Below, piece after piece: positions 5,957 through 57,600 of a DNA stretch of 64,000 nucleotides (position 1 is the stretch's first letter; every line of letters starts with the position of its first letter). The notes beneath the pieces were generated by a model, which worked only from the letters and a program-made list of their open reading frames with translations, had not been told where the DNA came from and did not search any database. This stretch comes from Macrolepiota albuminosa (Eukaryota > Basidiomycota > Agaricomycetes > Agaricales > Agaricaceae), in the NCBI GenBank assembly GCA_027475525.1, contig JAMWFC010000067.1, positions 1-64,000 of the forward strand, given 5' to 3'. The translations under genes were made by a program, and so were the position numbers.

Positions 5957-6110
5957 CATTTCTCATGTCAAGAAACTCAAGGAATTAGCTTTTTAGACAC
6001 CATTTGGAATCAGCTGGCTTCAACAGAGAGGGGCATTTCTCATGTCAAGAAACTCAAGGAATTAGCTTTTTAGACACCATTTGGAATCAGCTGGCTTCAA
6101 CAGAGAGGGG
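5957..6110. repeat. Perfect 77-bp tandem duplication in the first array spacer
   Basis: Units 5957-6033 and 6034-6110 are identical. The homologous segment in the second spacer (about 8577-8653) is present once. Confidence 0.95.
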
Positions 6111-6481
6111 GGACAGAGTCAATGACAATGCTACAAGAGGACGACACTAGATGTGCAGTATCTGGTTTTATGCATAATATTTATATAGTATAGACTTAGT
6201 GAATGTATATTTAAGGATTAGTTATCCTTCTTTGAAGTTAGCATTGCATAGTTATCCATAAGCTGCCGAGGTGAGGTACTCACATACTTTGAAATATAGT
6301 CGTACAATTTTGTGCTTAGTAGTAGTACTATGTAAATTGCATCCCTCATTGTAGACTATCCTTAAATGCACCGTTGTACCGGAAGTTTGTCGAACGTTAA
6401 GTCCACACAGGAGTTCTCCTAAACTATTGTCACTTCGCTGAGAATCCACCATCGCACCTGCGCCACAAATGTCTCTGTTTA

Positions 6482-6580
6482 TGACGTCATAGGAGGCCAG
6501 ACAGCGCCATCGCATCCACTTGAATACGCCACAGCCTCAACAATAGGAGGAGTGACCCACTTTTCCCCCGCCATAAAAGG
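6482..6580 (+). promoter_or_regulatory. Copy 2 promoter with TGACGTCA palindrome and TATA-like box
   Basis: TGACGTCA, the full CREB/ATF bZIP palindrome, lies at 6482-6489. CATAAAAGG lies at 6572-6580, about 95 bp before the start codon at 6676. The spacing matches copy 3 exactly. Confidence 0.55.
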
Positions 6581-6675
6581 ACCTCTTTGTGGCGCAAACA
6601 AATCCATCGAACCATCGAACCAACCACAACCTACTTGTCTATCAGCACTACTAAACCATCTAACACTCATCTATC

Positions 6676-7406
6676 ATGTCGTCTTATGACTACACCAACT
6701 ACGAAACTGCCTACGCCTACGAGGAGCCCTACTACCATACCCCGGCTCGTGAGCGCCCTCGAGACTCAGCCGCCTTCTGGCTCGAGACTCCTGAGAGCAC
6801 AGAATACAATCAATGCTACTGCGCGCTTTGCGACAGGCACTTTAAATCGCTGAAGAGGCGCGAACGACATGTTGCCAGATCCTCCAAACATCCTTACTGT
6901 GAGGTCTGCGATCGTCGATTCTTGAACGGCAACGCTTTGCGTGCAGTAAGTTACATTTGTCCTATCTTCGATACCAGTGAGGCTGACTCTTTTTTCCCCT
7001 ATAGCACCGCATGTACTCTTATGATCATTTCTTCAAGGCCGGAGGTGATTACGATTTGGACAATGGGCAGCTTTCCTACAAAGATATGACCTGGGAGACC
7101 CATGACGAGTTCGATTGTGACGATTTTGATTATGCTGGAGATGAAGTCCACGAATGCATTGCACACCTTGTCAAGATAGACGAGGAAGAGGAGCAGGAAG
7201 AGGAGCAGAATGAGTCGGGCCCTCCAGCGACAGAGTTTACCTGCCCGATCTGCGAACACACTCCCAAGACCGTATGCTCTACCCTGTGCGGCCACATGTT
7301 TTGCGCGCCTTGCATCAAGATGGCGTTTGATGTTTCTGGGATGTGTCCGGTCTGTGATGAGGAAGGGAAAGTCAATCAACTTAGAAAGATGTACATCTCT
7401 TCTTAA
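6676..7406 (+). CDS. C2H2 zinc-finger plus RING-finger protein, tandem copy 2
   Basis: Exons 6676-6945 and 7005-7406 encode 223 aa with the same layout as copy 1: a paired C2H2-like region, an acidic linker and a C3HC4 RING. Only two residues differ from copy 1. Residue 4 is Tyr instead of Ser, and the Asp just before FTCPIC is Glu. The intron sequence is the same. Other differences from copy 1 are synonymous and cluster in exon 2. Such low divergence with intact zinc ligands suggests a recent duplication or gene conversion under constraint. Confidence 0.88.
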
Positions 7407-9215
7407 CTCAATAAACCTCCTTTTTTTTCAACCCCTTTTCTCCTACTTCTCAAAGATTCAAGTGCATTTTGTGTATCCGGGGTATGCATTTTTCGCTTTG
7501 CCGCACTTAACAGAAAGTTGCAATGAATGGTTTCTATCTTCGCTCCGTGTTCTGTTTATGTTACATCCGTTGTGGTGTAAGGCGGTAATGGGTCCATTTA
7601 TTTATTGATTTATTACGCGCAGACATGGACACTGCTGGAAGTTCAAGACCTTTGAGTGAGTGCCACAACACACATTCCTTTGTGCGTTGCGACCGCTAGC
7701 TTTGACAATGACCATTCACTGGGTGCAGGGAACAATATTCTTCGATATATCTCTGGTGTGATATTCATTTTTCAGTATACATAAACTTATCTACACTGTT
7801 ACCTTGCTGGGGTTATGTCCAGTTTCCTCAGGGCTTCAATGAATGATCAGTTGATTAGACAACATGCTGCCAGTTGTCTTGATTTCAATTGATGCTCAGT
7901 TATGTTAGTATCTGATACCAATGAATCCAAGAACAACTGCAAGTATATTCTAAGGTATTGTCAGCAACGTATGTGAAAAGTAAGTATTAGTTTACGCACC
8001 CTCATTCTCCTATAAGTGACCGAGGGTTGCCTCTGTATTAGGTCTGTATATATATTCGTCCATATAACAATGGTAGCATTGTTAATATATTGTGTCAGAT
8101 GGGTTGGATGAGGCGGCCATTGATGTGATAAGTGTGACGGTGTACTTTGAAGAGACGAGGACGTCGTGGTTGATGGTGGCCAGATTTCGGCATGCTGACA
8201 AGTTACCAATCCACAGACCTTATCACAAATTTTGAATAGAACACAAATTTCTTCCTCAACTCTTGTTCCACTTCCATGTATGTCTGCTGAACCTATTATG
8301 ATGCTTGTATTTCCCTTTCCATATACATGAGTTGGAACAGCAAAAGTAGGATAAATATTTTGTAGTAAGCGGCACAGGTGACTAGTTCATAATTTCACGC
8401 AAGCGGTTACCCCGCACATGTCCCGACTAGTGGAAGGCTGACAACTATGCGTTGTCTGCCAGCCATAGCGACCCACCAAAAAAAAAAAGAAACAAGAGTC
8501 AAAGACTTATAAAGAAGTTACAATTGATCTTGGTTCAAAGGATTTTTCATTTTTCATCAGGACTGACATTTTGGGCCATTTCTCATGTCAAGAAACTCAA
8601 GGAATTAGCTTTTTAGACACCATTTGGAATCAGCTGGCTTCAACAGAGAGGGGGGACAGAGTCAATGAAAATGCTACAAGAGGACGACACTAGATGTGCA
8701 GTATCTGGTTTTATGCATAATATTTATATAGTATAGACTTAGTGAATGTATATTTAAGGATTAGTTATCCTTCTTTGAACTTAGCATTGCATAGTTATTC
8801 ATAAGCTGCCGAGGTGAGGCACTCACATACTTTGAAATATGGTCGTACAATTTTGTGCTTAGTAGTACTATGTAAATTGCATCCCTCATTGTAGACTATC
8901 CTTAAATGCACCGTTGTACCGGAAGTTTGTCGAACGTTAAGTCCACACAGGAGTTCTCCTAAACTATCGTCACTTCATTGAGAATCCACCATCGCACCTG
9001 CGCCACAAATGTCTCTGTTTATGACGTCATAGGAGGCCAGACAGCGCCATCGCATCCACTTGAATACGCCACAGCCTCAACAATAGGAGGAGTGACCCAC
9101 TTTTCCCCCGCCATAAAAGGACCTCTTTGTGGCGCAAACAAATCCATCGAACCATCGAACCAACCACAACCTACTTGTCTATCAGCACTACTAAACCATC
9201 TAACACTCATCTATC
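7407..9215. other. Second array spacer and promoter region of copy 3
   Basis: No credible gene is present. The region matches the first spacer closely but has one copy only of the 77-bp segment that is doubled at 5957. The copy 3 promoter occupies its right end. Confidence 0.7.
9022..9120 (+). promoter_or_regulatory. Copy 3 promoter with TGACGTCA palindrome and TATA-like box
   Basis: TGACGTCA is at 9022-9029 and CATAAAAGG at 9112-9120, about 95 bp before the start codon at 9216, as in copy 2. Confidence 0.55.
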
Positions 9216-9946
9216 ATGTCGTCTTCTGACTACACCAACTACGAAACTGCCTACGCCTACGAGGAGCCCTACTACCATACCCCGGCTCGTGAGCGCCCTC
9301 GAGACTCAGCCGCCTTCTGGCTCGAGACTCCTGAGAGCACAGAATACAATCAATGCTACTGCGCGCTTTGCGACAGGCACTTTAAATCGCTGAAGAGGCG
9401 CGAACGACATGTTGCCAGATCCTCCAAACATCCTTACTGTGAGGTCTGCGATCGTCGATTCTTGAACGGCAACGCTTTGCGTGCAGTAAGTTACATTTGT
9501 CCTATCTTCGATACCAGTGAGGCTGACTCTTTTTTCCCCTATAGCACCGCATGTACTCTTATGATCATTTCTTCAAGGCCGGAGGTGATTACGATTTGGA
9601 CAATGGGCAGCTTTCCTACAAGGATATGACCTGGGAGACCCATGACGAGTTCGATTGTGACGATTTTGATTATGCTGGAGACGAAGTCCACGAATGCATT
9701 GCACACCTTGTCAAGATAGACGAGGAAGAGGAGCAGGAAGAGGAGCAGAATGAGTCGGGCCCTCCAGCGACAGACTTTACCTGCCCGATCTGCGAACACA
9801 CTCCCAAGACCGTATGCTCTACCCTTTGCGGCCACATGTTTTGCGCGCCTTGCATCAAGATGGCATTTGATGTTTCTGGGATGTGCCCGGTCTGTGATGA
9901 AGAAGGGAATGTTAATCAACTTAGAAAGATGTACATCTCTTCATAA
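9216..9946 (+). CDS. C2H2 zinc-finger plus RING-finger protein, tandem copy 3
   Basis: Exons 9216-9485 and 9545-9946 encode 223 aa. The protein matches copy 1 except that Lys near the C-terminus (EEGKVNQL) is Asn. All C2H2 and RING ligands are intact. The coding part and the upstream 350 bp match copies 1 and 2, but the 3' flank after 9950 has diverged strongly from the 3' flanks of the other two. This makes it the oldest right-hand boundary of the array. Confidence 0.88.
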
Positions 9947-10447
9947 ACAATAAACCTCCTTTTTTCAACTCCTTTTCTTGTATATCTCAAGTTTCAAGTG
10001 CTTTTCGTGTTGTCGCGCTTAACAGAAAGTCGCATTGAATGCTTTGTCTTCTCTCCTGAACACTTCCTCGTGTCTTGTCTATGTTGCGTTCGTTGTAAAA
10101 GCGAAAGGTGGGAATGGGTCGGTTTGCTTATACGTGTCGTAGAGTTGTTCCTGATATATCTCTGGCGTTCAGTATACATCGACACACTTATCTACATTGT
10201 CGCCTTGCAGATTTCCCGGACAGTTTTCTCAGGGCTTGACGATGAATGCTCGGTCAATTAGATGCGCTCGGCGTGCTGCCGATGGGTTGCGTGTAAACAC
10301 GCGTCATTCCATTTTCGCCGATCGTTACGCGCGTCTTACCGGCACATCAAAAGAGCTCACTTGACTTCAGTATTAATACAGATGTAGTCGACCTTGTATG
10401 CCACCACCTTTCAGCATCTATCTCGTATTCCACCTCGGTAACATAGG
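9947..10447. other. Diverged 3' flank of the array and upstream region of the SLP2-like gene
   Basis: AATAAA lies just after the copy 3 stop. Weak similarity to the internal spacers continues to about 10280. From there to 10447 is unique DNA that must contain the promoter of the stomatin-like gene. No separate gene is seen. Confidence 0.6.
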
Positions 10448-11993
10448 ATGCTCTCAGCCTTGACTCGGACGCATGCCCGTTTGGGGACAGCTAGAATTAC
10501 ACGCCGCTGCATGCAGCGCAGAAATTTCGTCTCCATTATTCAACAAGGTCATGAAGGGTGGCGTCTAACGTGTGTTTCTCTGAACTTCTGTACAAGTTTC
10601 TAGCTCAATGAATGATAGCCTTGGCCGAGACCCTGTCAAACTGGAGCCTGGGCTCAACCTTGCTATACCAATCTTTCATGAAGTACTCATTATGGACATG
10701 AGGGAGTCCTCTATCGCCATTCCTCATGTCAGCCATTGTTCTTCCAACTGCTATTTTTGTTCTCAACCTCTGAACATTCTTAGCTCACCGGATATACATT
10801 AGATAATGTGCGTTTTACCTGCGGCTTTCTTATCACTACATCTCATTTTATAAAGGTGCCAGTGACATGCTCTGGCTCTCTCTTCTACCGGGTCACCAAT
10901 GGATACAAGGTATAAGACCGTCACTTTCTGTAGCATCCCGAGAGATTCACATGGCGCGTCTGCCAGGCTCTGTTCGAAGTAAGCAATGTTCACGAGAATA
11001 TCAAGAACACCGGAACTTCAGCGGTCAGATCCGTCCTTGGGCTCTTTTCCTATGATCAGGTATAGTGTACACCCGTATTTTTGTCCGGCGATCCCGTAGA
11101 TTGATTCGTTCGCAGGTGATAAGTGACCGCAATGAACTCAATAAGCGCTTGAACACTGTAATTGGGAACTCCATAACAGTATGTAGTGCTTCGTTCAACG
11201 TACCAAAGCGTTTGAGCTAATTTTTTCCCAAGAACTGGGGCGTGGAGTGCTCCAGATTCGAGATACAGACCTTCAAGCCAGCGAATAGGGAGGTGGAGGT
11301 ACTGTCCATTTTCCATGCTTTTTGAGACCGCCTGGAATATGAATTTCTCTGAAATATTAGCGTCAACTAGAACTTCAAATGGAGGCGGAAAGAAACCGGA
11401 GAAAACAGCTTTTGGATACACAGGCACAAATTAATATTGCTGAAGGCCAGAAACAACGTGTAATTCTTGAAAGTGAAGGCCATGTAAGGCTTTGATATCG
11501 TTTCCTTCTGTTTTCTTGACAAGCCTTCGGCAGCTTGAAGCCAAATCTAATGAAGCCGACGCGTTTTACAAAACCGTCGTACGCGAGGCCGAAGCAAGGT
11601 CAGTGCATACCACATTATTTCTCTGCGTAATACTGGAAAAAAAAAACAAAATCAAATAGGCAGAAGCAGGCGCTCCTGGAGGCATCTGCGCTCGCATCTC
11701 AAGTTGAGGAGCTTGCTCGGTCGATAGCCAAAGACAAAGAGAACATTCTTTCCGAAGAGCGACAACGAGCGCTGACTTCCTTAATCGAACTACGACGATT
11801 GGATCAGCTCAAAGCGATCGCTCAAAGTAAGAGTAACTCAACATACTTCTTTGGCGATCAGGCCGCCCTTGGACGAGGAAATGATTCGTATAATATTGAT
11901 TATGCTGAGCATGTTAAAGGTGGACTACTTTCAAAGCCACTGGGCCGGCCAGAGTCTGGGATTGCTACAGTGGTGTCCGAAGTAGTTCAGTAA
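10448..11993 (+). CDS. Mitochondrial stomatin-like protein (SLP2-type SPFH/PHB)
   Basis: The ATG at 10448 opens an Arg-rich presequence (MLSALTRTHARLGTARITRR) followed by NFVSIIQQGHEG, consistent with mitochondrial import. Spliced exons then read LGRDPVKLEPGLNLAIP, VLIMDMRESSIAIP, VFYRVTN-like sequence, and VISDRNELNKRLN with NWGVECSRFEIQT, typical of the SPFH domain of SLP2. The segment RQLELQMEAERNRRKQ then QRVILESEG is the diagnostic SLP2 coiled-coil region. SLP2 proteins scaffold cardiolipin-rich inner-membrane domains. The C-terminal part after ILESEG differs from typical SLP2: a longer Glu/Lys-rich helix ends in DQLKAIAQSKSNSTYFFGDQ. About seven short introns. The family is firm; the tail is unusual. 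Confidence 0.82.
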
Positions 11994-14738
11994 CTTGTTA
12001 GGTTGATGAATATGGGGACCGTCCAGGCACGAAAATAGTCTACTGTGAGTACTTCGGTAATACATACTCAATAGAGATACCTGTACAAAGAGCTCTGGTT
12101 CTTTTTCCTTAGATTTTGTACCTATTATGGACCTGTATCGTAAATAAATTAATAACGCGAGGCATTCCTCTGCTGCTGATTTCTGCTGATTTACTCTTGT
12201 CACAAAGGAGATTGCGAGAATTTGGAAAGAAAGAAAACTGGAGAGCATGTTTCTCATCGAACTGTAATCGCACGGTCACGACCGGCTGAAATGTACGATA
12301 TATTTATAATTGTCTGTACGAGCTTTGCTTCCATTTTGCTTTATGTCCGCCGCATATCGACCCTTCCTTCATTACCTTTCCGCACTCTTGCCGTTTTCGT
12401 ACGTACACTAGTAGCTTTCTGGAAAAAATGCAGCAAGCTTCTAATGTCTACACCATTCAATCTACACAAACATCACTAGCCGTGTGGCGATAAATTATTG
12501 TTCTGAAACTTGACTTATGCAAGTCAGAGAAGAAACAAGCTCTTGGAGATATCGTTAGGGCGGGGATGTCGACATCAGGAAGAAGCGCAACATGATCTTT
12601 CTCGGTACGTTACTCCGCTTTATTGCTGATCCGACTGGCCTATTTTAGAAACTGACGTGGCGCATCCAGTGAACTGGCAGGTGGTCATGTAAAAATACAG
12701 GAATGCCGCTCCTTGTTCTCTCAAAGAGTTCTGTCGGTCTTTGGCTCAGGAATCGACAGTTGGGTGTTATGTCCAATTTCATTTCACTACTTGTGCTTAA
12801 CCGGGAAATACAGAAGCGCATTCATGCCGAACTCCCTGCAAAGTCCGTTTGGATAGCTTTTGATTTAGCTGTGTAGAGTAGTAGTACACTGATTAGTCTA
12901 CAGGAATTAATGGTAAGTGGAAAGAAGTAAGTCGAGACAAGCTCAGTCACACTAGAATATTGTAGTGGTCGAGTTTTGTGTACTCTAGATAAGTAACGAG
13001 AATAATTAGGGTTCGTCCACAAAGACTAGAGTACAGGTCACTAAGCCACACTGCCTCGGGTGCAGGAAAAATATAGGAGTACCCGAAAAAATAATGTATT
13101 ATAAAAATGACGTACCGTGTGGGGTAAGTCATTACTCAACATGATGCTTCTTTGTTCTCCCGCTATTTAAAAAGTTCTGCAGCGTAAGAAAGCGACGTTG
13201 GCTTCGATTTCGTTAGCTAGATAGTTTACTCCGTTCTGAGGCTTGCGTGCCGTGAAACCTTTCGACTCTTCACTCCTGTCACATTTGTTTGGCGTTGGCG
13301 CGTGTCCTTCGTTCAGCTTTCATAATATACCCTCAAGGACGCTGACATCTCTGCAGGGACATCACCGAGGAGGTCACAAATGTTACCGAGAGGTGACTGG
13401 GCAAGGGCTGGACACGACCCAATTGCCAGTGAGGGCACACGGCAACCCTTATGCAAGTCACACCGCCTACGACAAATGCCAGGTCCAAAGAATACAACGA
13501 CCCAGGATTGCCAGTGAGCACGATGCTTGGATTACCGCCGATAGCTCGAACGGTTGACATTAGGAGATGAATTTCATAACCAGGAACGAGATTCATGTTT
13601 CATGCAAATGACATCGTCCACATGTTTTTGTTCAGAGTCTTACGGTGTTGTTGGACACACATCTGATCAGAACATGTCCTTTTGTCCCTCATCACCCCGA
13701 CTCCCTATTCCCATGGGTCAAGCGAGCCCTGCATATATGGTCTGTATGTCCTGGAATTTTTTGGGAAAGTTTAGTTCCGTCCATGCTTTCTTTCACACAA
13801 TCGTCACCTTGAGTTTTGTTGTTCTCGTTTGTGTGACTGTTGTATTTGTTATGCATTCTCGTGCCGTCTTACCCTGTATGCCTCCGTCTCATGACGTCCT
13901 AGATGCCTCGAGGCGAATCACCTTTTTTGACTACATTGTCACCACAATGCCCACGATGAGATACCCCGTCCGCAGCTTAAACGCAGACCTTCAAAATTGA
14001 ACAATCGCCATTACAAAGGCATAATACAGCTCTTCAAAGTATATAGAGAATAATAGAGAACACGGAGTTTAACAGGCGGGGCGACCAAGAAAAACCATTC
14101 CAAAACCGCCATGAGGGACAAAAGGTATTGGAGTCGAAGATGAGGACAAAATAAGGCTGTGATGACAAATCGAGCAGGGTGAAAGCGAGTGGAAGTGCTA
14201 CTGCGCAGAGTGGCGTTGACAGCAGTAATGTAGCGTGATGCGTGGCACGCCCAGCTGGTCCAAAAAGTCCACGACATCAAAATGCGTGGCTGGAGGAGCC
14301 AACAGCGGCGTAGAATAGGATCCGCCCGTGGACCGCGTGGACGGTGTCGGGCGCTCGTACCAAGGGGGAGGTAGGTTGTGATGGGATGTACGGTTGTACA
14401 AATGCTGGGTTCAAGGATATGCCAATGCAAGAAGAGAGAAAGGATAAAATGAGGCCATTAAGCGCGTTCCAGAGTTGACGAAGAAGAATGCGTGTCATGC
14501 CAAAGAACATCATGAGAGATTGAAATGCGATGAAGGTATATCGACAATGAGGTAGTGCATGCGTGCGTAGGCTGTAGAGATGTAATTTGAGAGATGAGCG
14601 GATCCATGAATGTTTTTAATTATTTAAAGCCGAAACCGGAACGTCCAAGTTGGGCCAGGTCGACGGACATTTCAAAGAGGGTTGCTGGCGTGCATTTTTG
14701 ATGCCGGCATTGAAGCCATGACTGATGTGAGTGGAAGA
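11994..14738. other. Long region without a recognisable gene
   Basis: About 2.7 kb between two convergent genes. I cannot find a conserved protein on either strand. A minus-strand ATG frame from 14513 (78 codons) begins with a hydrophobic stretch. Another minus frame at 14401-14198 contains a Pro/Thr/Ser-rich segment (WYERPTPSTRSTGG). Together they might be exons of a small secreted or membrane protein, but I could not join them with confidence. The plus frame at 13554-14000 has one hydrophobic helix but no ATG start. Confidence 0.4.
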
Positions 14739-16726
14739 TCAGACCTCATACTCGTCCATCGCGGCCTTCTCGGCCAGAGTCAATATTCCCTCTCGTTGAG
14801 CCAATCGTTCTTCCGTTTGGCGCTGCAGACGTATTTCAGCCTTGATGTTGGGCAGCTCCTTGTGCAGATCAACGTGCGTGCCTTCTGCCCACCGTTTAAG
14901 AACCCAATCCCTCATATAATTGCTCGCCTGTAAGACTATAGTCAGGGCCTCGCGCCGGAGCCACGGAGATGGATACTTACCTTATAATACCGCTTGCCTG
15001 AGTATTTCTTGTAGAATGATTCGTGACGGATGGGTTTAAGGATGTAGTTCAACATCAAGTTCGCAGTCGGAATCAGAGCCGACTCAGGATAGGACGAGTA
15101 ATGGGCCAAGTTGGGCGTCTTTGACGAAAAATACTGAGTCAAGGTCTAAATTGTTGAAAGTGACATACCCAAACTTCCAAGTCTAGTGCAAGTCGTGCAA
15201 GCCATATCGATGCTGCAGCCAAAAGCGATGGTGGCGCAGCGATCAGCCGCCATTCTAAGCATGATATCTCCAGGAGGAATTTTGCAAGCGTTCGGACCTT
15301 GACATTGTAGTCGTCTGCCTTGCTTACTCGACGGAGGAAGTGCACAGGGTTCGGGTAGCTGAGGTTCCAGTCGAGGGTCTTGAGCACATATCGTTCAGCC
15401 TGGAGAATCTCAGACTCAGTGTAGGAGGCGTCGGCGCACATCAGAAAATGTGTGACTGAGGGGGCAACAATCTCTTCAAACTTCGCTGCGATAAACATGC
15501 ATGTTACACCAACAAGCTGTAGCTTAGCGAGGGAAACGACGCGTGCGGAGAGAAAGCGATCAATAATGTTGACGCAGAGCAAGAGGGTCTCAGGCAAGAG
15601 GCGGAAACGAACGTGGACTTGGATCAGCCAGTCAGTCAGAATCCCGCGCATCTTCCATGCGAGCTCTTTCTGGCTCTCCATATAATTCGGATTCGGCATC
15701 GTAGTGATCTATAATGAGACGTTAACCTGAGGACCCTTCAAATATGTTCAAAGCCTTACTTCAATTTGTTTCAAGTAGTCGAAAATTTCGACGACATAGT
15801 CGCTAACCATGAGAGGATCATCAGCATCGTCGGCGTCGAGGTCGTCCCATTGCGAGGTCTCTGGGTCAGCCTCGGGCTCATTAGCGAAGGACTCAATTTC
15901 AGCAGCAAGCTGAGCAGCTGCGAGTTCCTCATCGTTGGGTAGTTGATCATCTTCGACTGGAGCAGGGATATCGTCTGGTGACTCGGAAGATGTCCGCCGT
16001 TTCTTGAATACCCGGCTTGACTCGGCATCATCCACTTGTCGCTGAGTGCGTAACGAGATGCGACGTTGAGCATCGGAACGACCCTGGGTAGTTGAGAGCC
16101 TTTCCTTAGAAACAAAAGCCTTACGCGTTGTGATACTGGGTATTCGTGAAGCGGGCGGGTCAACAACCATCGCATTATCATCGGTTTTGTTTGTCGTCCC
16201 TGCCCTCAACTCCTCCAGGACCTCTACTTTTGTAATCGTCGCTGTTGTCATCCGGGCAGTCTGCCTAGTTCCAGCCACAGTCCGGAGGGGCTGGCGCGAC
16301 ACAGGTGCCTTAGACTTAATCACTACACCATCGAACTTGTCCTTGAGGGCATCCTTGTCCTTGCCATTTCCCGCCGCGGACTTGTTGTTTGCAAGAAAGC
16401 TTGTCACTTCCCCCAGTGCCTCTCGTTTCCTCTTTCCCGCAATCGCGTCTCCCTTATTTTCTGTGTTGATTTTCCCGCGAGAAGCAGCCGTACCAGCGGT
16501 TGCTCGACTGGTCCCGCCAGTGGCAGTGGTGGTCGAAGCTAGTGAGGCGGGTTTCGCACGGGTGGTAATGCGAGATGGGCGAGCATTGGCATTTTCACTG
16601 TCCTTGGCCGTTGCCGTCCGTGTTGTCCGTGTTATACGACGAGTCTGATAAAGTGAGCCAAGTTAGGCCTATAGGTGCTCGCTAAAGATGATAACACGGG
16701 AAACTAACCGGAATAGCTGAGGACAT
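14739..16726 (-). CDS. G2/mitotic B-type cyclin
   Basis: This is the regulatory subunit of the mitotic CDK. The start codon at 16724-16726 begins a tiny first exon (MSSAIP, 16709-16726). The next exon encodes a basic, Ser/Thr-rich N-terminus with REALGEVTSFL, a plausible destruction box of the RxxL type for APC/C. It ends in VVEIFDYLKQIE. The cyclin box begins MRGILTDWLIQVHVRFRLLP and continues with LVGVTCMFIAAKFEE and YVLKTLDWNLSYPNP. The C-terminal cyclin fold includes LAHYSSYPESALIP and SFYKKYSGKRYYK, and the protein ends in AAMDEYEV. Five exons. The B-type assignment rests on the MRxxLxDWL signature and N-terminal degron; length (about 550 aa) is usual for basidiomycete mitotic cyclins. 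Confidence 0.93.
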
Positions 16727-18181
16727 GGTGTCTCGCCGCTGTGCGATGCGTCGAAAGAGAGGGTTTGGTGGATAATGGCGAGACAGTGAAGAGCGGGAGA
16801 CAAGGTCCACTCCAGAAAACCAATTTGGATTCAACATCACGTGCATCATTTATGCACACAATACGTCACAACAAACAAAACGACGCGTTGCATCAGGTGA
16901 CCGTTTTATTTTCTACTCGGTGAATGGCTGCTAAAAGCACTTCTTCACTTCACAACGTGAGTGTTAATTTCAGAAATCTATGCCGTTGGATGAACCAAAG
17001 GGCGAGCCGTTGATGTCGAATCATAAAGTCAGGACACTTGAAAAGCACGCGCCTATCACATGCCCAAGCATGATCTTGTGTGAATGATTTATGAAATTCG
17101 ATCTTGATCGCAAGGATATCACCAAGTAAACAGCTTTGTCTGAGCTCAAGAAGACTCTGAAAGGAATAAGTGTTTTACTAGATTTTTTTGTAAAACTCTT
17201 TACCAGAGTGTAAGCCTGCAGCTTACAACAGTTTCCATGCCACGGAATTGTGTATATTGAATTAGGTGTTGAGTAATATAGCGGATTCAGATGTGTCCTT
17301 CATAGGCTGTAAAGGCTGCTGCGGTCTGGCTCCACGGATATCAGCGTGGGTCTCTGTCGATGACTCAGTTATGAAAGTGACATGGAACGGCGGATGTAAA
17401 AAGTCTCCACGAAGGTGCCCACTTGTCGCAATTCTCCTCCTTTTGATTTATCGATTAATGCTGTACATATTATGGGTCCTCGTCCACGAAGGTGCCCACT
17501 TGTCGCAATTCTCCTCCTTTTGATTTATCGATTAATGCTGTACATATTATGGGTCCTCGTCAGATACCATGTCTGTTAGGAGAAGGATGGAAAAAATAGC
17601 GAGTCGCGAGGATCATCTCTGAATTTTCGAAAGGTATTGAAAATGCAAGCGTCCTTGGGCATGTGTGGATGCAAGCTTTGATCAAGGGAAATTTTCGAAT
17701 TCTTTGGATTTCGGGCCGGTATTCCACCAATTAATGCGCAGGTGCGTTCATAATGGTGACCCTGCAGAGTTTTCAAGTTTTGCAGGGTCACAAGGCCACC
17801 TTTCTTTCATTTTGTAAAGTCGAGCTTTCAGCTGCTTATTGTTTAGCGGAGATATGACTCAAGATCAGTAATATGGTAGCAACGTGATCCTGTGACTGTA
17901 ACACTATTGACCGGGCCGAATGGGTGGGAATTTCCATAGATTTTTTCTGATCTACATAGACATGACAGCTTTCTTTGGTCCTTGTGCCAGTGTCGTTGCG
18001 AGTATCTTCCATGTTGTCATGGATAATGACGTTCCAGGATCGAGCCGGACGATTCATCGATTTCGATGGGCTTTTGCTACTTAGACTTAGAGTATAATTT
18101 TTTCTTAATCGGTTAGATCAATTATGAGGGGTCGTGAACGCTGTTCGCTGTCTTCAACATCCACGACTTTCTCCATAACTT
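16727..18181. other. Divergent intergenic region between the cyclin and ProRS genes
   Basis: Contains promoters of both flanking genes and the 77-bp duplication at 17406-17559. No ORF in it resembles a known protein. Confidence 0.6.
17406..17559. repeat. Perfect 77-bp tandem duplication (intergenic)
   Basis: Units 17406-17482 and 17483-17559 are identical. The flanks do not match beyond 2 bp. Confidence 0.95.
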
Positions 18182-20874: not shown

Positions 20875-21284
20875 ACGAGAGGGGTAAGGACATTGAATCG
20901 CTGTTTGTATATCTTCGGTCTGTCGCTTTGGTTTTCTATTCTGTTCCCAGAATTCCACGTCTAATCTGCACCTATCAATGGCATGAGAGTTTTGATCATC
21001 ACTTTGACCATAAGCAAGTCCGTTCATACTTACGTACGTTTTTGGAAGGCCTATCATTGATGTGAGCCCCAATTCTATCTCCGGTCGTCGACATTGCCTT
21101 TTCGAGTGGGTGTGTGTGATTGGCTTGGGCAATGTAACTGCCACCACGCAAGTGCGCTGTCCTATATTCGCCACACACTAAGTTATGTGTCATGTGCTGA
21201 TCTACTAATGGCATCTTTTATAGTATTAGATCATGATCCCCGTAACACCCACCATTCTTCCAACCCTTACCACCACTACGTACG
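20875..21284. other. Intergenic region between ProRS and the F-box gene
   Basis: Contains the 3' flank of ProRS and the presumed promoter of the F-box gene. I see no other feature. Confidence 0.5.
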
Positions 21285-26818: not shown

Positions 26819-27703
26819 CGCACTAGACGGCGAGAAACACAGGCCCAAAGCGCACCAGAGGCTTATGTTAAAATTGTATCACAAGCCCTTCTAGATTTAA
26901 AAACCAAGCTTAAGGTCAAGCCTCCCCCCACAGGCCGCTTAAGGTTTCCAAATTATTGTCACAGTAGTCGTGACGTAACAAGACTGTCACATTCCAAAAT
27001 TCCGGGCCGACGAACCCTTGCGCAGACACTCCGCCTTTACATCTTGACCGAGATTCAAATCAGTTTCGAAGTGTAATTTTGCTGGATGTTATGATGTTTG
27101 TGCCCGTGGACTCGTTTTCCTTTCTCGAGATTCAAATCAGTTTCGAAGTGTAATTTTGCTGGATGTTATGATGTTTGTGCCCGTGGACTCGTTTTCCTTT
27201 CTGTACGGCCTTTTCCTGTTCTCAAGTATTCCTATAATGCCTTTACGGGCAACGTCTGGAGTCATCCATCCTTGAGGCGAATTCGTCCTGCGTATCGGAG
27301 CTTACGGCCCGGTAATATCAAGGATGCACCCATCGCTCGGTATTGAATATCGAGCAACTGCAGATGCTGTCTACCAAACCAGATCAAGTGACTTCAGAGG
27401 AACTCTACGAGATTAAAAAGATGTAACTGTGTCAACTTTGAGCGGAGGGCATACGTCTTTTTTATCGACGCTGAATCGCACGTTACCCCTACGTGTTATA
27501 CAATTGAAGGTTCTTGGATTGCTGCACGCCGGGCCGTTCAACAGATCGTCTTTTTGACCACATTTCAGCCATGTCTCATGATTGTCTCCCGTGACAATTT
27601 GGCAATAGAGCTTCCGTCTCATTATTGCTTCCATTATGCCGGTACTGATGCCTACTGGCTTTAAATGCGACGCATGAGAGCTGTCTGAAGCCCTGTATAG
27701 CCA
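26819..27703. other. Intergenic region between IleRS and GH16 genes
   Basis: Holds the IleRS promoter, the 77-bp duplication at 27049-27202, and the GH16 upstream region. No further gene recognised. Confidence 0.5.
27049..27202. repeat. Perfect 77-bp tandem duplication (intergenic)
   Basis: Units 27049-27125 and 27126-27202 are identical; neighbouring bases do not match. Confidence 0.95.
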
Positions 27704-42521: not shown

Positions 42522-43076
42522 GGTAGCAAGGAGAAGAGGAGGAGATAACGGGTCTAGTGCATGTTATAAGTGAGGAGAGGCAATAGAGAAGGACCCGGCA
42601 GGTGCTGGGTATGTAATAAATTTATGTGACGAGTGTAGCCCAGAAAGAAGAACCAAAGCAGATGTCAGATCTTGTCATCATCTGTTAGCCAGAAACAGGC
42701 ATGTCCGATCAGTGAGAATTGCCAGCAATTTTTGTGGCAACGTTCCAGGTCCGACAGGGGAAAGAAACCTCGTGAACATGTGAACTCTGGAAGGTAAGGG
42801 GTGATGAATGAATCGATATTTACATTGGGTCGACATAAGTTTGGCAAAAGGTGGGGTAACGGATCAAATAGCCGTCCATGGGGTAAATCTCAGAGATGAA
42901 ACGCTAAAATAAAGGCACATCCAGGATCGAATGTTTTCTGATTCCAGGAGGCAAGGTCATATTGCCGTAACAGCGTGACTCGTTACGGTCATGTGAGTCA
43001 CGCGATCAAGCTGGGCTGAAATTTCCTGGCGCTGCGCTTCTCGTCAGCGCGCTTCCCAAGGGCTTCTATCTTGCGC
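42522..43076. promoter_or_regulatory. Divergent promoter region with a 9-bp inverted repeat
   Basis: The region between the nucleotidyltransferase-like and MRS2 genes contains GCGTGACTC at 42973-42981 and its reverse complement GAGTCACGC at 42995-43003. Each arm contains a TGACTC/GAGTCA core like those recognised by AP-1/Gcn4-type bZIP factors. No other feature is seen. Confidence 0.45.
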
Positions 43077-45045: not shown

Positions 45046-47565
45046 CCCCCGTCCACATAAACATAAATAACACGGAGAGTTCCCGATTGCGCCCACCACC
45101 CACCCCACACTATGGACGTTACACGTGTCCGGGTTTTTATTTTTATTTCAACTGGGCCTTGTCGAGGTGATACGTGTATACCCAGACGGTCTGTTTTCGT
45201 TGTGTTGATCTTCTCTCCGGGTCATTGCGATGTCGACAGAAATGATACGGAGAACATCGCGGCTTCCGGCGGCGTGGCTCCCCTGATTCTTTCATTGTAT
45301 GTATTTAGATCTGAGCGAAAGATCGCCCAAATCGATGTTATCGACGATCTTGAGACAAAAATAATTTGTAGGGTTGAGTTCTCGGCTGTTCACACTCAAC
45401 GCTTGTGAAATTATCGCCCTTTCGAACTCTGAGGCTTGAGTTACAAACGTATCAGAGATATTCGACCGTTCGAGCTCTCTGGACAGACGAGACGACGCGT
45501 ACGTAAGGTGATTTGCGATCTCCCATCTCGCAGGACTGCATCAGGAGTGTTTCACCCAGACAAATTTTATTGCTCTGGTTATGCCCTTTTGCTGGGGCAT
45601 CTGATCTCACGAGGGTTGTTTGTTGCAAGGCCAGAGACACATGTTTTGATGATGAAAGCCGCGTCATTCATCCAGAGACTTAAAGGTGGCGCTGTGAGCC
45701 GCATCGTGAAAGGGTGCGGTGCATTACTCTTGAAAAAAAGGCCTTGGTCGTACTCATGCCGACCGAAATTCGAGTGTCGTAGAACGCTCAAAGTGGAGAG
45801 TAAAATAAAACGAATTCGTTGGCCAAAAAGATTACCATGTGATATTTTCTCCTTCCAACGAAGCCGGATTGCAAAGAACGATGGAGCAAATACAGGGGCC
45901 ACTGCTTTTCCAGAATTCAAACGATATCGGGCACATAGCCGAGATGGAGCGAAAATAAGGGGTTCAATGCCAGTGGGTATCCTTGGGGCTGGCGCGACAT
46001 GGACAGAAGCCACGAGTAACTCTTATCAACTTTTCTGGGACAAAGGAGTTGCAGATCTAAGCTGGTAGACTTTCATGCTGGTAACGAGTGCGTGTATACG
46101 GACAAGAACATACACAAGCTGTGGAAAGGCGAAGGCATGTTTCACGAGACTTGTGATTAGTCAACGGACTGAGTGTCATGTTGAGCTGATGGACATCACA
46201 TTGAATGGATAATGCGGTAGTGAACGGAGGTTAATCATGAGTCAATCAAAACGCTACCTTTCATCTGGGCCAGGATACTCAAAGTATTTCTCCGTAAAAC
46301 GCTGCACTTGTGACCATGCCATGTAGATTGAGCGGCGGTGTGGATTCTCTTAAGTCGTGCGATGACATGACAAGCCGTGATTGACAGATAAAAAAGGGTC
46401 GCATGTCCAGTGGATATGATTCTCACCACATATCACAATGATCAAACAGTGTTCTTTAGGCCATCCTCATGCGCGCGTCAGTGGATAAATTTGGATTACG
46501 GATTCAAGGTTTCACAAGCGTCATCAATTGGTATGCTCAGAAACCTGGTTGAACACGGTCCTAAGTGCGATTTATGCAACATAGTGCATCTCTGATGACA
46601 GATACAAGAGCCACGGATATTCTAAGCTTGGCGTGGCGAGAATGTTCACGTCCATCGGGAGAACGGTAGCCGGGGCCTCATGGTCGTATGAATACCTTAT
46701 CTGTGGTGCTAGAAAGGAGATGAGCCTAAATATAGAATTACAGAAATTTCATGCCACTTCTAGCTCGACTATAGAGCGGAGATTTCGATGCAATGATTGC
46801 GAGAATATTGATGTTCAAGAGTCATATGGTCTTCTTTCAAGGAACCGAAATGTTGAAAGGTAGGTGGTAGTGGAGCGGATGGAACTTACACCCTCAAAGT
46901 ACGTTCCTGGCGCGAGCCACAATGATCAAACTTGCACATTGTCAACCAAGGAAGCGGCCCCGAAAATGTTGTATTTGCAAGGCATGCTATGTCTTTTATC
47001 CCCAGCAGCAAGTCTATAGCACACCGCAGTATGATCAACCCGGGAGGTGTGAAGGTCAAGCAAAGCCATGAATACACGAGGTTCAAGTCCCTGTCTTTCA
47101 TGATTTTCTCTTCTGTTGTCTGATCCTGGGATACTGTGCTATCTGATGCGACTTTGAGGTCAAGAACAAAGGGTGCCAATAGGTTGCCAATGGGTGAGGT
47201 TCACCAGATATATGCTACGAACTTCAGTAGGATATAGAGGGTGACACGAAGCTATGGTTAGGCCGGAGTTGGTTGATACCATAATTTGATCTAGAGTAGC
47301 AAATCGAGAGGTCGCCGGCCAGGAGACATGATATACAAATGGGATCCGATGTTCATTCGCAGAGGAAGTTAGTATATGTCATCGAACCTCCGAAGTTACA
47401 TTTTAAAGTGCGAGGATTGTGTCATTCGCGAGTTCGCGATGACGGGACTAGCATAATAGTGGAAAGGTTTGAAACTCTGATCTCCCACGCGTGTCTTTAT
47501 CTTCGTTCATTCACAGCAGCTTCTGAAAAAACCTAGCTATATTCATTTCCGTTGTCATTGTGCAG
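45046..47565. other. Long region without a recognisable gene, 2.5 kb
   Basis: Several long frames overlap on both strands (plus 45436-46068; minus 46013-45579; minus 47179-46886), but none starts with a convincing ATG and none shows a domain. The minus frame at 47179-46886 carries a hydrophobic segment (SWLCLTFTPPGLIILRCA) and could be an exon of an unrecognised membrane protein. The right end is the 3' flank of the lyase gene. Confidence 0.4.
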
Positions 47566-49071
47566 TCATGTAATAGCACACGATCTGTCAGGGTTTGTTA
47601 CTCGGAGGGTCATTTCCTTACTCAACCCCATGTAGTTAGCGGGATCGCACCACGATTCCAGTTCATTCCTTGTTACGCCAGTATTCAAGACAACCTCGTT
47701 CTCGGAGAGAAGATCCACCAACGGCACCACGATTCCAGTTCATTCCTTGTTACGCCAGTATTCAAGACAACCTCGTTCTCGGAGAGAAGATCCACCAACG
47801 ACCGATCTTCTTGGGCTGCCCTGTGACAGAGGTCGTAGATGAGATCGTGAGCGACCTGCCTACCAATCAATTTTCCCAGCTGCATCATTACTGCTTCGCT
47901 TGTAATCGCTCCTTTCGTTTTATCCAGGTTTTTTCTCATTGCTTCAGGGTGAACCTCAAGTCCATCCAGAATCTCTTGGGTGTGCGTCAAGATCGCATGG
48001 GTCATTGTGCATATCTGGGGCAGGACGATCCACTCAATTTCCCAAGGTCCAGTACTTCGTTCGTGGTCCTCGACCATTGCGTCGAACAGGGCAGCACTCA
48101 ACTGCTTCACCGTACTGCTCATTGCTGTGATATATACGCTCGATATTGGGTTCCTTTTCTGGGGCATCGTGCTACTCGATCCACGATGGGCATAATATGG
48201 TTCAGAAACTTCTCAACTTCTGTTTGCATAAGCAGTTTTACATCGAACGCAAACTTGGCACACGTTCCAGCTACCATCGCGAAGAAGGAACCAATTTCCG
48301 TAATTCGGTCCCGTTCTGTATGCCATGCAATTTCTGGAACGTTTAAACCCAGTTCTTTGGCGAGTTCCTCCTGAACTTGTAATGCAACACCTGAATCTGA
48401 AATGGTAGCGAGCGTCCCAGCTGCCCCTCCAAATTCTACAACTAGCAGGCGCGGAAGGATCTCTGAAAGTCTAGTTGCGTGGCGTTCAAAAGTGGCGAGT
48501 AAACGTGCCAGTTTGAAACCGAAGGAAATAGGCACGGCCTGCTGCAAATTAGACCTGGCTGCCATCGGAGTAGATGCGTGTGTACGCGCAAGTTTTCGAA
48601 GGATGCAAGTTATGTTCTCGAATGACTTAGAGACCAGATCACACGTGTCACGCAGTTGGAGGACCGTCGCAGTGTCTGTTACATCCTGATAATATGTTAC
48701 GGCATAGTAACTTCTCTATCATATGTACAATTGCGTACTTGTGTGGTGGCTCCCCAATGAGCCCACTCTCCCAGACCAGGTTCGATTTCATTCACTAATC
48801 GCACAAGCTGCTTCACGACTGGCAACACGGGATATCCGATTTTACGGGTTTCCGTTTTCAGCTCCTCCATGTCAATCAAGTCGACATCACATTTTTCCGC
48901 AATTGCACTAGCTGCCGTGCGTGGAATGATCCCTAGACGTGCTTGGACCGTGGCAAGAGCGGATTCAAATCGGAGATAGTATGACGTGCGAGACTTGTCT
49001 GACCAGATGGCTGATGACGAGGACGAGGAGAAGATGTCTTGAAACACGGAAGAGTCTGTTACTGTGGACAT
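47566..49071 (-). CDS. 3-carboxy-cis,cis-muconate cycloisomerase / adenylosuccinate lyase-like enzyme (frame broken twice)
   Basis: A member of the fumarase/aspartase superfamily. The ATG at 49069-49071 begins MSTVTDSSVFQDIF; then FESALATVQARLGIIPRTAA, EWAHWGATTQDVTDTATV, MAARSNLQQAVPISFGFKLA and VVEFGGAAGTLATISDSG. These are closest to the PcaB-type cycloisomerases of the beta-ketoadipate route. The superfamily signature GSSSTMPQKRNP is at about 48140-48175. Two faults break the frame. First, near 48209-48216 the frame before the signature (LLMQTEVEKF) does not continue into EPYYAHRGSSSTMPQK; a missing single base would explain it. Second, the 77-bp duplication at 47647-47800 shifts the frame about 50 codons before the stop. 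With one copy, the frame would reach a stop at 47566-47568. Substrate is not certain. Confidence 0.8.
47647..47800. repeat. Perfect 77-bp tandem duplication inside the lyase gene
   Basis: Units 47647-47723 and 47724-47800 are identical. The shift of 77 bp (2 mod 3) throws the C-terminal frame of the lyase into an early stop. Confidence 0.95.
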
Positions 49072-49761
49072 AGACCAGAATAAGCAAGGGTCGCACTGCC
49101 GCTTGTGGGAAGTCGAAGCAGAAAATGAAGCAAACGGAATTGTGTGAGAGTTGATATAGATCTAGACTAATATTATAATGACGTTACCTTTTCTTTCAAC
49201 TTGCCTCTTTTAGGTGGAGACATGAGCGCCTCCAAATGCATTGCCATATTCAGTTAACGTTTATTCCAGGCAAATTTCCAGAATCCACGAGGATGCTGCC
49301 CCTCACGATGTAGAACAAAAGCACACACAGTTAACGTTTATTCCAGGCAAATTTCCAGAATCCACGAGGATGCTGCCCCTCACGATGTAGAACAAAAGCA
49401 CACACTCAGAGCTATCTCAAATACGCATTTGACGGTGATCTATGCCTCGCAGAGTCCTGCGGCTAATCTCACTGCACTCGTTGAATCCTTCGATGCCTCG
49501 AGTTGTTTTTATGGACAGTAAAGTAATAGACGAGAAAGCAGAGAAAGGTCGATAAACTAGCTAAAGAAGACAATTCGGGGTGAATGTGGTAAAGTATCTG
49601 AGTGGAAGGTTGTATCACATAAGAATATCCGCGTCATAATTCAATGACAGAAAACCGAAAAATGAGGAGCTAGGCGATTCCAAAACGAATTAGAGAGAAA
49701 TGCGACAGCTCACCCCCTTGTTGCACATCGCCAATGAGGACTGCGTTATCAACAGCAAGGA
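49072..49761. other. Intergenic region between the lyase and calcineurin A genes
   Basis: Contains the lyase promoter, the 77-bp duplication at 49251-49404 and the 3' flank of the calcineurin gene. No additional gene. Confidence 0.55.
49251..49404. repeat. Perfect 77-bp tandem duplication (intergenic)
   Basis: Units 49251-49327 and 49328-49404 are identical. Confidence 0.95.
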
Positions 49762-52590
<2,829 letters not shown>

Positions 52591-53235
52591 ACTCGTATTG
52601 GGAGACGGAGTTGTCGACGAGTAGAAAGGGACGATGGGCGATAAAAGAGGAAGACAAGGAGAAGCGCTTGCAATTGTCTGTCGCAAAACGTGACAACTGA
52701 GATGATCAAAATCGTCAATCCGCTTAAGCGCGCTTGTTTTTATCAGGCGTGGACCCGCGCAGCACGAGATCTAGTAAGTAATTACAGAATTAAAAAAAAG
52801 ATGTGATGTCAACACTATTTCTGTCGTTGCTCCCCGTTCTCGGTTTGGGAGTCAGTAATTACAGAATTAAAAAAAAGATGTGATGTCAACACTATTTCTG
52901 TCGTTGCTCCCCGTTCTCGGTTTGGGAGTCGCAGCATTGAATAGGAAGTGTGGGATGCACATTGGTGTTGCATATTCAAAGCACAGGCTATACTGGTCAA
53001 GCTTTCAAGACTCGATTTATGCCATGTACTTTGCCCATTTTTCTTATATCAATACGAAAGATGTGCTTCGAGTTGTGAACATACCCACACTGCAATAGCT
53101 GTCGTGAATCATGTACGTTGTCATAGTCAGCTTTATTCAGAAGCGGAAGGCAAACTCTGGCGAAGTGGGAATTCTAGAGCACTGACCAATCTGAAAAACT
53201 CAATGTAAATGGTAGATATACATATTATTTTGCGG
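52591..53235. other. Intergenic region between calcineurin A and UNC-50 genes
   Basis: Holds the calcineurin A promoter and the 77-bp duplication at 52777-52930. No other feature. Confidence 0.55.
52777..52930. repeat. Perfect 77-bp tandem duplication (intergenic)
   Basis: Units 52777-52853 and 52854-52930 are identical. Confidence 0.95.
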
Positions 53236-54442
53236 CTATGAGCCAAAGTATACACCGAGCACGCCTTTCGCGACATTAAAGCCGAGAAGAGATATTATGT
53301 AGGCGGTAAACAATGGAAGGAGAGGAGACAAAAGCAGCTCTGAGCGAATGAGGAACGGTAAAGCTGCAATTTGTGTCAGGCAAAGGACAGGCAGTGTCCT
53401 AAACACAAGTAAAGCATACCATTTAGACCAAGATAAACTCCATATGTATACTGAGCGAATCTGCAAGCCAGATACACATCAGTGACGATGTTATTACGAG
53501 ACAGAAATGGACGGAGACATACGCAGCCAGATAGAGAGTATTTCCGACCCAAAGGCAGACCCAATTGTCCTTGAATATTATGGGAAGCAGGAAGAGCTGC
53601 GCAAGATAAAGAGCAAGGTATAAAGGAAAGAATGCATTTGTGTGAACATCAAACGCATAGCCCCACTCAACCTGGGAATCGGCGGGCGACGTATGTGATG
53701 GCGGAGAGAGTAACATACGATTCGAAACGAACCTAAGGTGCTTGTTAATTCCCAAAACACGTCTTGAAGGATTATGAATGACCATATAACGGTGGCAATA
53801 ACGAAACCGGACAAGAGATAATCTCGCAGTATCATAAGAAGGGCAAGCTTGAGGGTGTCAAAGATGCCATATGAATACACAATCGACCATGCAACAGCAG
53901 CGACTTCCAACGTATCTCAGCAAGCAATTTTAGGGCTCGGGGAAACTGGCGCACCACAAAGACATGCAGATAGCAAGACAAGAATAGCGGGGTCGTCTCG
54001 TGCCCACGTATTTTTGGTTTCTAGATCGACGTCAAGTCATACATAGGTATGAGAACGGGCGACAAACGTTTATGGAAATAGACATTTCGATAACTATGTT
54101 CATGGTCAATTTATACTCGCATGTGCGGCCAAATGAAGCTCACACTCACACTCTCCGAGGTGCTAGGCAAAGATATGTGAGTTGCCACGCTGCAAGCATG
54201 TGCGGCCAAATGAAGCTCACACTCACACTCTCCGAGGTGCTAGGCAAAGATATGTGAGTTGCCACGCTGCAAGTTCAAAATCCTGCATAATTCTTGAGAC
54301 ACAGGTAATATAGGTAAGATATAGTACACACCATCTGATGAAAGCGATGTAGCCGCCTGAAGATGGCAGGAATGCGCTGGGTCAAGCTACCAGAGTTGCG
54401 GTGCATGTTTCCATCCTCAGAGACACTCGTCGGGAGAATCAT
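53236..54442 (-). CDS. UNC-50/GMH1 family Golgi membrane protein
   Basis: A multi-pass inner-nuclear/Golgi membrane protein linked in other eukaryotes to receptor trafficking and Arf-GEF function. The ATG at 54440-54442 gives MILPTSVSEDGNMHRNSGSL. The next exons read DFELAAWQLTYLCLAPRR, then TKNTWARDDPAILVLLSACL, matching the conserved UNC-50 N-terminal block. Further on are AAVAWSIVYSYGIFDTLKLA, VEWGYAFDVHTNAFFPLYLA (the family's best-conserved motif) and DNWVCLWVGNTLYLAAYV. The protein ends ISLLGFNVAKGVLGVYFGS. Five or more membrane helices are evident. The duplication at 54119-54272 doubles the exon carrying ELAAWQLTYLCLAPRR and its donor, so the assembled gene is damaged there. Confidence 0.9.
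54119..54272. repeat. Perfect 77-bp tandem duplication in an UNC-50 exon
   Basis: Units 54119-54195 and 54196-54272 are identical. Confidence 0.95.
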
Positions 54443-54676
54443 CGTATTATAAGCAAGCCTCTGGCGTAGAAAAAAAGCCAGCTTAATGAATCAGTTGAGA
54501 AAGTTTAGAGAATACGCGACCGACAGTGTACAGCACGTCAAGCACGCCAGTCACGGTCGATTGGAACAGTTTATTTTTAAGCGGAGCTCAAACCAAAACA
54601 ACATCAAACTTCCCACAGTCTCCGTCACTGTCCTTTGTACTATCTCTCTTCTTTTCTTTTACCCAACACGACCACG

Positions 54677-57600
54677 ATGGAGGACGAGAACGATGTTCTA
54701 GACTGGGGCGCAGAAGAAGAGGAAAGCAAAAATCAGGACGCTGGTAAAAATGGTTATGCCCGCTCAGCTGCCGGTGACAACGATGATGCTGAAGACGCAG
54801 TTTCACTTGGTGACGAAGAGGAATCACAGGAATTCTATCTGTATCAGCAGGAAGAGCAGAAGGAACTGAAGACGCAGTTTCACTTGGTGACGAAGAGGAA
54901 TCACAGGAATTCTATCTGTATCAGCAGGAAGAGCAGAAGGAACCGCTGTGGAAATGGAAAACAGCGAAGTCAATGTCGCGCCACGTTCCATAGGCGCCGA
55001 CGATGCAGCTTCAACCGCGACTCCCAGCGGGCTTCAGCCAGAAGATTCATCAACAAGCTCACAGTCTTCACAGTTACCGATGCAGCTTCAACCGCGACTC
55101 CCAGCGGGCTTCAGCCAGAAGATTCATCAACAAGCTCACAGTCTTCACAGTTACCTCCTCGAAAACAGGAACGCCTCGCAGAAACAGCAGCACTGGCCGC
55201 CGTTCTCCGCAGCCTACTTTGGCTCCAAGGATAACTCATGCTCTCCCTCCAAAACCAGTTGTGGCGAATGTGCCTTTCCTGCCCCCTTCCCACCCTTCTA
55301 TCGTTGAGGCAACAGCAATGTCAGCACCAACACGGACGTCAGGTCGTAGTGAGTCTCAACACAGCAAGGTTCATGGAACTTCGACATCGACCGTATCTAC
55401 TACAGGTAATGGAAAAGGTCTTGCTTCAGAGAATGAGCTTCCACCTCTACCTCGTGGTTGGGAAACTCGTGAAGCGCGAAGCGGATCAGGAGGAACCTAC
55501 TATTACAACGTGCGGACCCATGAATCCACCTGGACTCGTCCCGTGAGCAACTCTTCTTCCTCTTCACCTAGTAGGCACCTCCGTGGCGACAGCGCTCGTC
55601 GTCGTCGCGGTAGTGACTCGTTCTTGGGAGCCAAGTCTTCGAGTCCACGACGATCTGATAACTCCCATTCTCAGTCTCAGGAACCCACTCGACACTCTAG
55701 GCGCACACAGCCACTTGATCATAACCATGTTACAGATTCGCAAATAATCGCTCCCACAAATGTAACCACGATGTCTTATAGTGACCGTCATTATCGTCCA
55801 GGAATTGAACCAGATAACGCAAATTCTAGTGGTAATACTAATGACAGACCCCATCGAAATCGCCAAGACGTGAATCCACGTTTTAACTCACGATCAGGTC
55901 AAGCATTTACGCCATCTCCTGAAGCCTCACCGCGTGCTCGTGAGCGCCCCAGATCTCTCTCCCCGTTGCCCATGTCTTCACAGGTTGCTTCTCGTGGTCG
56001 AGACTCTAAGCCTACTCGTCCCCCGCGTACTGCACGTGGTGGCCGGAATGGCAATACTGATGCAGATTCCTCGATATATAGAGACCGTGATCCATTATTA
56101 GGCTCATATCTGGTTCGAGACAGCTGGGATCAAAGTAACGCCTACCAAGAGTCTCGTCGTCACTCGCGCAACTATCATGAGACACCTTATGACACGTCTT
56201 TCAACGACAACAGACCGCCTATGTTACCGCGAAACGGAACAGCAAGGGGTCGCCGTGAAAGAGATCAGCCGATGCGTGAAGAGAGCCAAAACATGCCCGA
56301 TTCTAGTACGTTGTCCGCCTCATCCCATACCTCCTCTATCCCCCCTCCGTATGCGGGCACGGCCACGGTGGCATTAGTATTCCGCGGGCGGGGCGAGTCG
56401 ATGTTTTTTCTGCCCAGGCTTGTCTTGCCAGGCCTGATTGAGGCAGCTCACCGTGTGCCGTTGCTCTTGTTCTCCGTTCCATATTCCTCGGCCTCTCTCC
56501 TCTCCTACTCTGTCGACTTCAAGGACGCTCATTACGGATCATTTTTTTCTTTCCTCCCCCTTTCCACCTTTATCGCATGTTGTATCGAAAACCATGTTTT
56601 TTCCCCCTAAACTTTCCCACCTATTTTTTTTGAATCTCTATAGGGAACAGATCGCTGCCTCCAGGCAAGCATGACACACACATGCGCCACGATGAATCAC
56701 AAGATGCCCAACGTTGGCCTTTGCCACAGTTGCGTGGACACGAAGGTCACCAAACGACATCCAATACGATGAATCACAAGATGCCCAACGTTGGCCTTTG
56801 CCACAGTTGCGTGGACACGAAGGTCACCAAACGACATCCAATTAGTTGCGCCGCCTCCATTATCGCTACACCCACCCCCGCAACGCAAACGCGACCGGCC
56901 ATCACGATTTGGACAGCAGCCTAATACAACGATCTCAAAACCTGGAATACCGTCTGCCCGGCTTCCAACACTCGAGCTGCAAAGTTATCCGCATCGGCCC
57001 ATGGAAGAGGACGATCCCTTTGTGCCTGACGACATTAGGTCTCCACCTCCGTACGAACTTCAGCAAAGACGTGAAGGCCTAGATGAGAAATCGTCCTTGT
57101 TTGAAGCGTCCGTACAAGCCATAGAGAATGGTCCATATCGCCAGGTCAGGCACTTAGAACGGACAGATGGACCTGATGATATGGAAAATGCATCTCCATC
57201 TGAGCAACGTACGTACCATTCCAAACCCCTCTTCCATCTACTTGACCGACGTCTTGCCTGCTTTTCCTTTCATTTTCTTTGGAAACGTCTCTCTCTTGAC
57301 CTTTGTGGCTTGGTCGGTCGTCATCGTACCTAGGTCGCGCTCGGCCGCCGTTGCCACCCCAGGCTACTCAGTTCGAAGTATCAAATCGACCACGTGATCG
57401 TCATGGTCGGCCTCCTCCAGATGGTGCTTCATTTTCTCGTATCAACGACCAGGATGGGCAACCATCCGTGGCATTGCACGATGCCCAGGGACCGGAACAT
57501 GGTAATGTATCGTTTGGTTCTCGTTCTCGACCCTACGGACACGGTCGAAACCTCGAAGACAACTATGATCGTGAAGATTCAGAATCTGCTTTTCGGCGAC

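Follow-up and report, generated by a model that had tools for sequence, protein, structure and literature searches.

The question raised by this locus is how one stretch of DNA could come to hold a series of perfect tandem duplications that all have a length of exactly 77 bp. The stretch analysed, called the window below, comprises bases 1–64000 (64 kb) of contig C13 (852,507 bp), which is part of an assembly of 100.1 Mb in 129 contigs. A scan of periods 20–1000 yields for the window 14 perfect duplications in head-to-tail order, each with a period of 77 (Table 1), and no perfect tandem duplication of any other period in that range. The preliminary description of this DNA had listed the same 14 starts, and all of them are found at those coordinates; its count of ten within 47.6–56.9 kb has to be changed to 11 of the 14. 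It had also stated that the match extends only 1–2 bp outside the unit, in agreement with the measured runs of 77–79: the identical run is 77 bases long in seven duplications, 78 in six and 79 in one. The runs of 78–79 would fit chance matches of the flanking bases, given that the expected share with no extra match is 0.56, and a 77-base exact tandem match is itself not expected by chance in 64 kb. The segments had been said to share no sequence, and a self-comparison of the window at E ≤ 1e-20 reveals no similarity between different 77-bp units. A further repeat of the window is a direct repeat of 110 bp (60113–60222 and 60580–60689), the copies of which are 95% identical and 467 bp apart.

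Table 1. Duplications of 77 bp in the window and a frame-splitting deletion, in window coordinates, with the state of the corresponding sequence in the allelic contig C106.
Feature	Position	Identical run (bases)	In C106	Difference from C106 or other remark
Unit and copy	5957..6110	77	Single	Directly after unit
Unit and copy	17406..17559	79	Single	C/T directly before unit
Unit and copy	27049..27202	77	Single	G/A directly after unit
Unit and copy, in lyase-like gene (minus strand)	47647..47800	77	Single	None within 10 bp
One-base deletion relative to C106, splitting the frame of the lyase-like gene	~48212			tblastn frame change at 48212
Unit and copy	49251..49404	78	Single	First difference 12 bp after unit
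Unit and copy	50711..50864	78	Single	One base missing directly after second copy
Unit and copy	51129..51282	78	Single	None within 10 bp
Unit and copy	51516..51669	77	Single	A run after second copy short by one A
Unit and copy	51915..52068	77	Single	None within 10 bp
Unit and copy	52777..52930	77	Single	GG after second copy short by one G
Unit and copy	54119..54272	78	Single	Nearest difference 11 bases before unit
Unit and copy, in WW-domain gene	54789..54942	78	Single	One base missing directly after second copy; frame change
Unit and copy, in the same WW-domain gene as 54789	55001..55154	78	Single	One base missing within 2 bp after second copy
Unit and copy	56689..56842	77	Single	Differences start after one matching base on both sides

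Three kinds of natural repeat have to be considered for such an arrangement, namely ordinary minisatellites, inherited tandem duplications and the target-site duplications of an insertion. Tandem arrays do occur nearby, with 2.6-kb units in the window and 61-bp units in one of the further stretches described below (L014), and the window duplications resemble natural tandem duplications and minisatellites in the head-to-tail order of their copies. They differ from these in being fixed in length and undiverged, with two copies only of unrelated sequences. The point had been made beforehand that real tandem repeats diverge, and the array of ~2.6-kb units close by (3.7–10.0 kb) has indeed done so: it occupies 3702–10010 and consists of partial copies that are 94–97.5% identical. 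Minisatellites were rejected because all 14 duplications are perfect at 77 bp, with neither variable length nor divergence. Target-site duplications were rejected because the two copies of every duplication are directly adjacent, with nothing between them and hence no inserted element.

The duplications are not confined to the window. A further sample was made up of 16 stretches of 10 kb, five from C13 and 11 from eleven other contigs (12 contigs in all). It contains 21 perfect duplications, all of 77 bp, in ten of the 16 stretches, and the remaining six hold no perfect 77-bp duplication. The preliminary description had proposed the distribution of periods as a check, and the spike at 77 is present beyond the window: in the 224 kb of window and stretches together, a non-random sample of 100 Mb, 35 perfect 77-bp duplications stand against one 61-bp array. 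That array (L014:450) is a perfect tandem array with an identical run of 715 bases; a period of 21 bp, matching over 20 bases, occurs once besides. A looser scan (periods 30–300) finds two further 77-bp duplications with one mismatch in L006, together with scattered imperfect repeats of other periods. Outside the 35, two more perfect 77-bp duplications lie at locus L040 on contig C1. If the density in this non-random sample were extrapolated, on the order of ten thousand such duplications could exist genome-wide. The smallest interval between neighbouring duplications is 212 bp (n = 24 intervals), and their spacing is no more than suggestive of a lower limit on piece length. The letter N is absent from the window and from the 16 stretches, so that any joins are not marked as gaps, a fact that we count against an origin in assembly.

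A second version of the region provides the most direct comparison. Short queries around ten of the 14 units found contig C106 (3.43 Mb), the other four units being located in the flanks of these matches; a 16-kb query returned only weak matches on C95, and not C106. The matches of C106 to the window are inverted and colinear in order. Thus the assembly holds two versions of the region and is at least partly uncollapsed. A protein read from C106 shares 93% and 91% identity with hypothetical proteins from two Termitomyces strains, so that the organism probably belongs to this mushroom genus or close beside it. For another Termitomyces assembly, an excerpt of the published report gives 64 contigs and 70 Mb (PMC10021994). 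All 14 units occur once at their C106 loci, with 77 of 77 bases identical, and a scan of 14 C106 loci shows no 77-bp duplication. For the unit at 5957 the window contains, in addition, a sister copy near 8.57 kb, 2.6 kb away, which also has the unit just once. It should be noted that C106 is not itself clean, since a copy of a mobile element on this contig (L046) carries an interrupted duplication of period 76/77.

Mobile elements allow the same comparison to be made among many copies of one sequence. The duplication at position 7338 of stretch L006 lies within a putative Ty3-type retrotransposon, as read from its translation. A search with this element gave 70 match rows from the best 40 of 586 candidates, among which at least 11 rows besides the query are nearly full-length and 83–95% identical. 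Nine of these 11 were examined, along with one copy that aligned in two pieces. A perfect 77-bp duplication is present in seven of the nine, at starts of 50, 87, 89, 99, 105, 130 and 177 (101 in the query), so that seven copies have seven different starts and the position is not common to them. As the copies were picked by full-length alignment, those with 77 additional bases close to where the query has its own were more likely to be chosen, and these counts therefore give no frequency. Of the other two of the nine, one repeats at period 77 but matches over no more than 70 bases in a row, and one is interrupted by a one-base shift; the copy in two pieces has no 77-bp duplication. In the family of a second element, from stretch L005, one of three pieces contains a whole duplication starting 7 bp before that of the query. 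Its two halves carry the same two substitutions, which means that the doubling came after them. In one of the other two pieces the duplication is truncated where the piece begins (run 65), and in the other it is imperfect (33 + 30, with one mismatch). Imperfect duplications were met in L006, L046, L050 and L056, and could be the result of later polishing. The doublings within elements look like separate events that share one length and took place after the elements had diverged.

These comparisons bear on the natural repeats considered above. Inherited duplication was rejected, as the units of the window are single in C106 and the duplications of seven element copies start at different places. 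More generally, the duplications are shared neither with the allele, nor with the sister copy at 8.57 kb, nor in position among the copies of an element, and we give minisatellites, inherited duplications and target-site duplications together almost no credence. The same evidence can be put to a real cellular process that duplicates exactly 77 bp in tandem, with all cases recent. C106 has no second copy at any of the 14 places, pairs of copies are identical inside elements that are only 83–95% alike, the units adjoin differences between C13 and C106 above chance in a test made on the units that prompted it, and the frames of two genes are broken (both described below). No process that copies in steps of 77 bp irrespective of sequence is known to us, nothing specific speaks for one, and a real process of this kind is extremely improbable. 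A mechanism of replication or repair would have to copy 77 bp, have done so recently, in one of two genomes, and prefer the sites at which these differ; we consider that hardly conceivable.

The relation of the units to differences between the two contigs is informative about the step at which they arose. If the pieces of an assembly graph with k = 77 end at the last 77-mer common to two versions of a sequence, units that adjoin differences are to be expected. In nine of the 14 cases C13 and C106 first differ 0–2 bp outside the unit. The difference is a single-base deletion in C13 at six of these, a substitution at two (17406 and 27049) and, at 5957, two extra G (read by eye). In the aligned block that contains 11 units, six have a difference at ≤1 bp, compared with 0.020 expected per unit (binomial p = 3e-8), and five have one at distance 0 (p = 4e-8); the cut-off was picked on the very units tested, and the p values rest on those data. 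The expectation was derived from random difference-free placements, with one-base indels allowed anywhere within a single-letter run. Of two queries for adjacency at new junctions, one (L005:7480–8160) fell in a repeat family, and for the other (L008:500–1200) a second copy of the locus was not found. Five of the 14 units (47647, 49251, 51129, 51915 and 54119) have no difference from C106 within 10 bp. A branch between C13 and C106 leaves these five joins unexplained, and repeats or read errors would have to account for them.

The densest part of the window had been proposed to mark a poorly covered or heterozygous stretch. Greater heterozygosity does not hold, as the two contigs are more alike here than in the flanks: the 8365 bp from the first to the last unit of the 11-unit block contain 31 substitutions, and the ~2.5 kb outside contain 42. 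What marks it instead is the presence of one-base deletions in C13. Over the same 8365 bp, C13 has 13 one-base and two two-base deletions relative to C106 and no insertion (13 one-base deletions versus no insertion, two-sided p = 0.0002), whereas indels of both signs are found in the ~2.5 kb outside. The frame-splitting deletion near 48212 is one of those in C13. The one-sided deletions suggest errors of uncorrected long reads, and their occurrence beside units suggests that uncorrected long-read sequence entered at the joins.

A further question is whether the fault lies in a k-mer-anchored correction or gap-filling step applied to a long-read draft. Such a tool would take as its anchor the final 77-mer that is still reliable ahead of an error, fail to bridge that error and write the anchor twice, with the error staying in place. 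The excess of 13 one-base deletions over no insertions in the block (p = 0.0002) is in keeping with this, as are the six one-base deletions 0–2 bp after the second copy, a position to be expected if each unit were the final correct 77-mer ahead of an error, and the element copy in which a one-base shift interrupts the duplication. The substitutions that adjoin 17406 and 27049, however, look allelic. Moreover, four units (47647, 51129, 51915 and 54119) are followed by 30 bp free of differences and have no adjacent difference before them, and plain joining explains these four equally well. We regard correction or gap-filling as the step at fault as possible but less likely than not.

At least two genes have a broken reading frame in the window and an open one in C106. 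The first encodes a lyase resembling 3-carboxy-cis,cis-muconate cycloisomerase, with Lyase_1 and ADSL_C domains, and has in C106 an open frame of 357 codons. When its Termitomyces relative P0111 is compared with the window by tblastn, the frame changes at 48212 and a second time at the 47647 duplication, with residues 407–432 being read there twice in two frames; residues 111–452 of the same protein match C106 in one frame. The second is a WW-domain gene with an open frame of 634 codons in C106, represented in the window by two overlapping frames of 217 and 538 amino acids. The relative P0001 shows a frame change at the 54789 duplication. A join of this kind within an exon changes the reading frame, since 77 is not divisible by three.

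The preliminary description had attributed the duplications to scaffold joining that left a k-mer overlap in place twice. An assembly artefact with k = 77 is very likely, and the analysis supports it, with either joining or k-mer-anchored correction as the faulty step. The grounds for this are the constant length and exact identity of the copies across many contigs, the single copies in the allele, the frequent location of units at differences, the varied positions in elements and the broken frames. Irrespective of the step at which the fault occurred, we are highly confident that the 14 duplications are an artefact of this sort. Each unit would be the 77 bases by which neighbouring pieces overlap in a de Bruijn graph with k = 77. 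Such pieces would end at the k-mer where versions of a sequence part, be these alleles, copies of a repeat or read errors. Both neighbours would then carry the end k-mer, and joining them without trimming would write it twice.

A value of 77 is a common last k in SPAdes-type assemblers. The SPAdes process creates overlaps at contig ends, and Unicycler is described in an excerpt of its report as removing them so that contigs run directly into their neighbours (PMC5481147). An untrimmed overlap of this type would share with the present duplications the fixed length, the perfect identity, the lack of a common motif and the frequent location beside differences; it differs in that the one-base deletions beside the units here point to an additional long-read step. 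False duplications of the heterotype and homotype kinds in assemblies, as far as the excerpted account goes (PMC9516828), are similar in producing false gene changes, and those of the window are distinct from them in being all exactly 77 bp and directly adjacent. The exact fault was not found reported in the literature searched (titles and the openings of abstracts).

In all likelihood, then, the 77-bp duplications are not a real biological feature, and the finding is a warning about the quality of the assembly rather than a statement about biology. Gene models, pseudogene calls and counts of tandem repeats from this assembly are unreliable where the duplications occur. Any assembly can be checked for this fault at little cost by looking for one period that stands out among its perfect tandem duplications. 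As a separate observation, pairs of repeat matches with equal scores occur at constant offsets on C90, C81 and C59 (236,323, 556,397 and 228,712 bp, respectively), and C27 has one such equal-score pair with an offset of 174,194 bp; these are possibly large false or segmental duplications.
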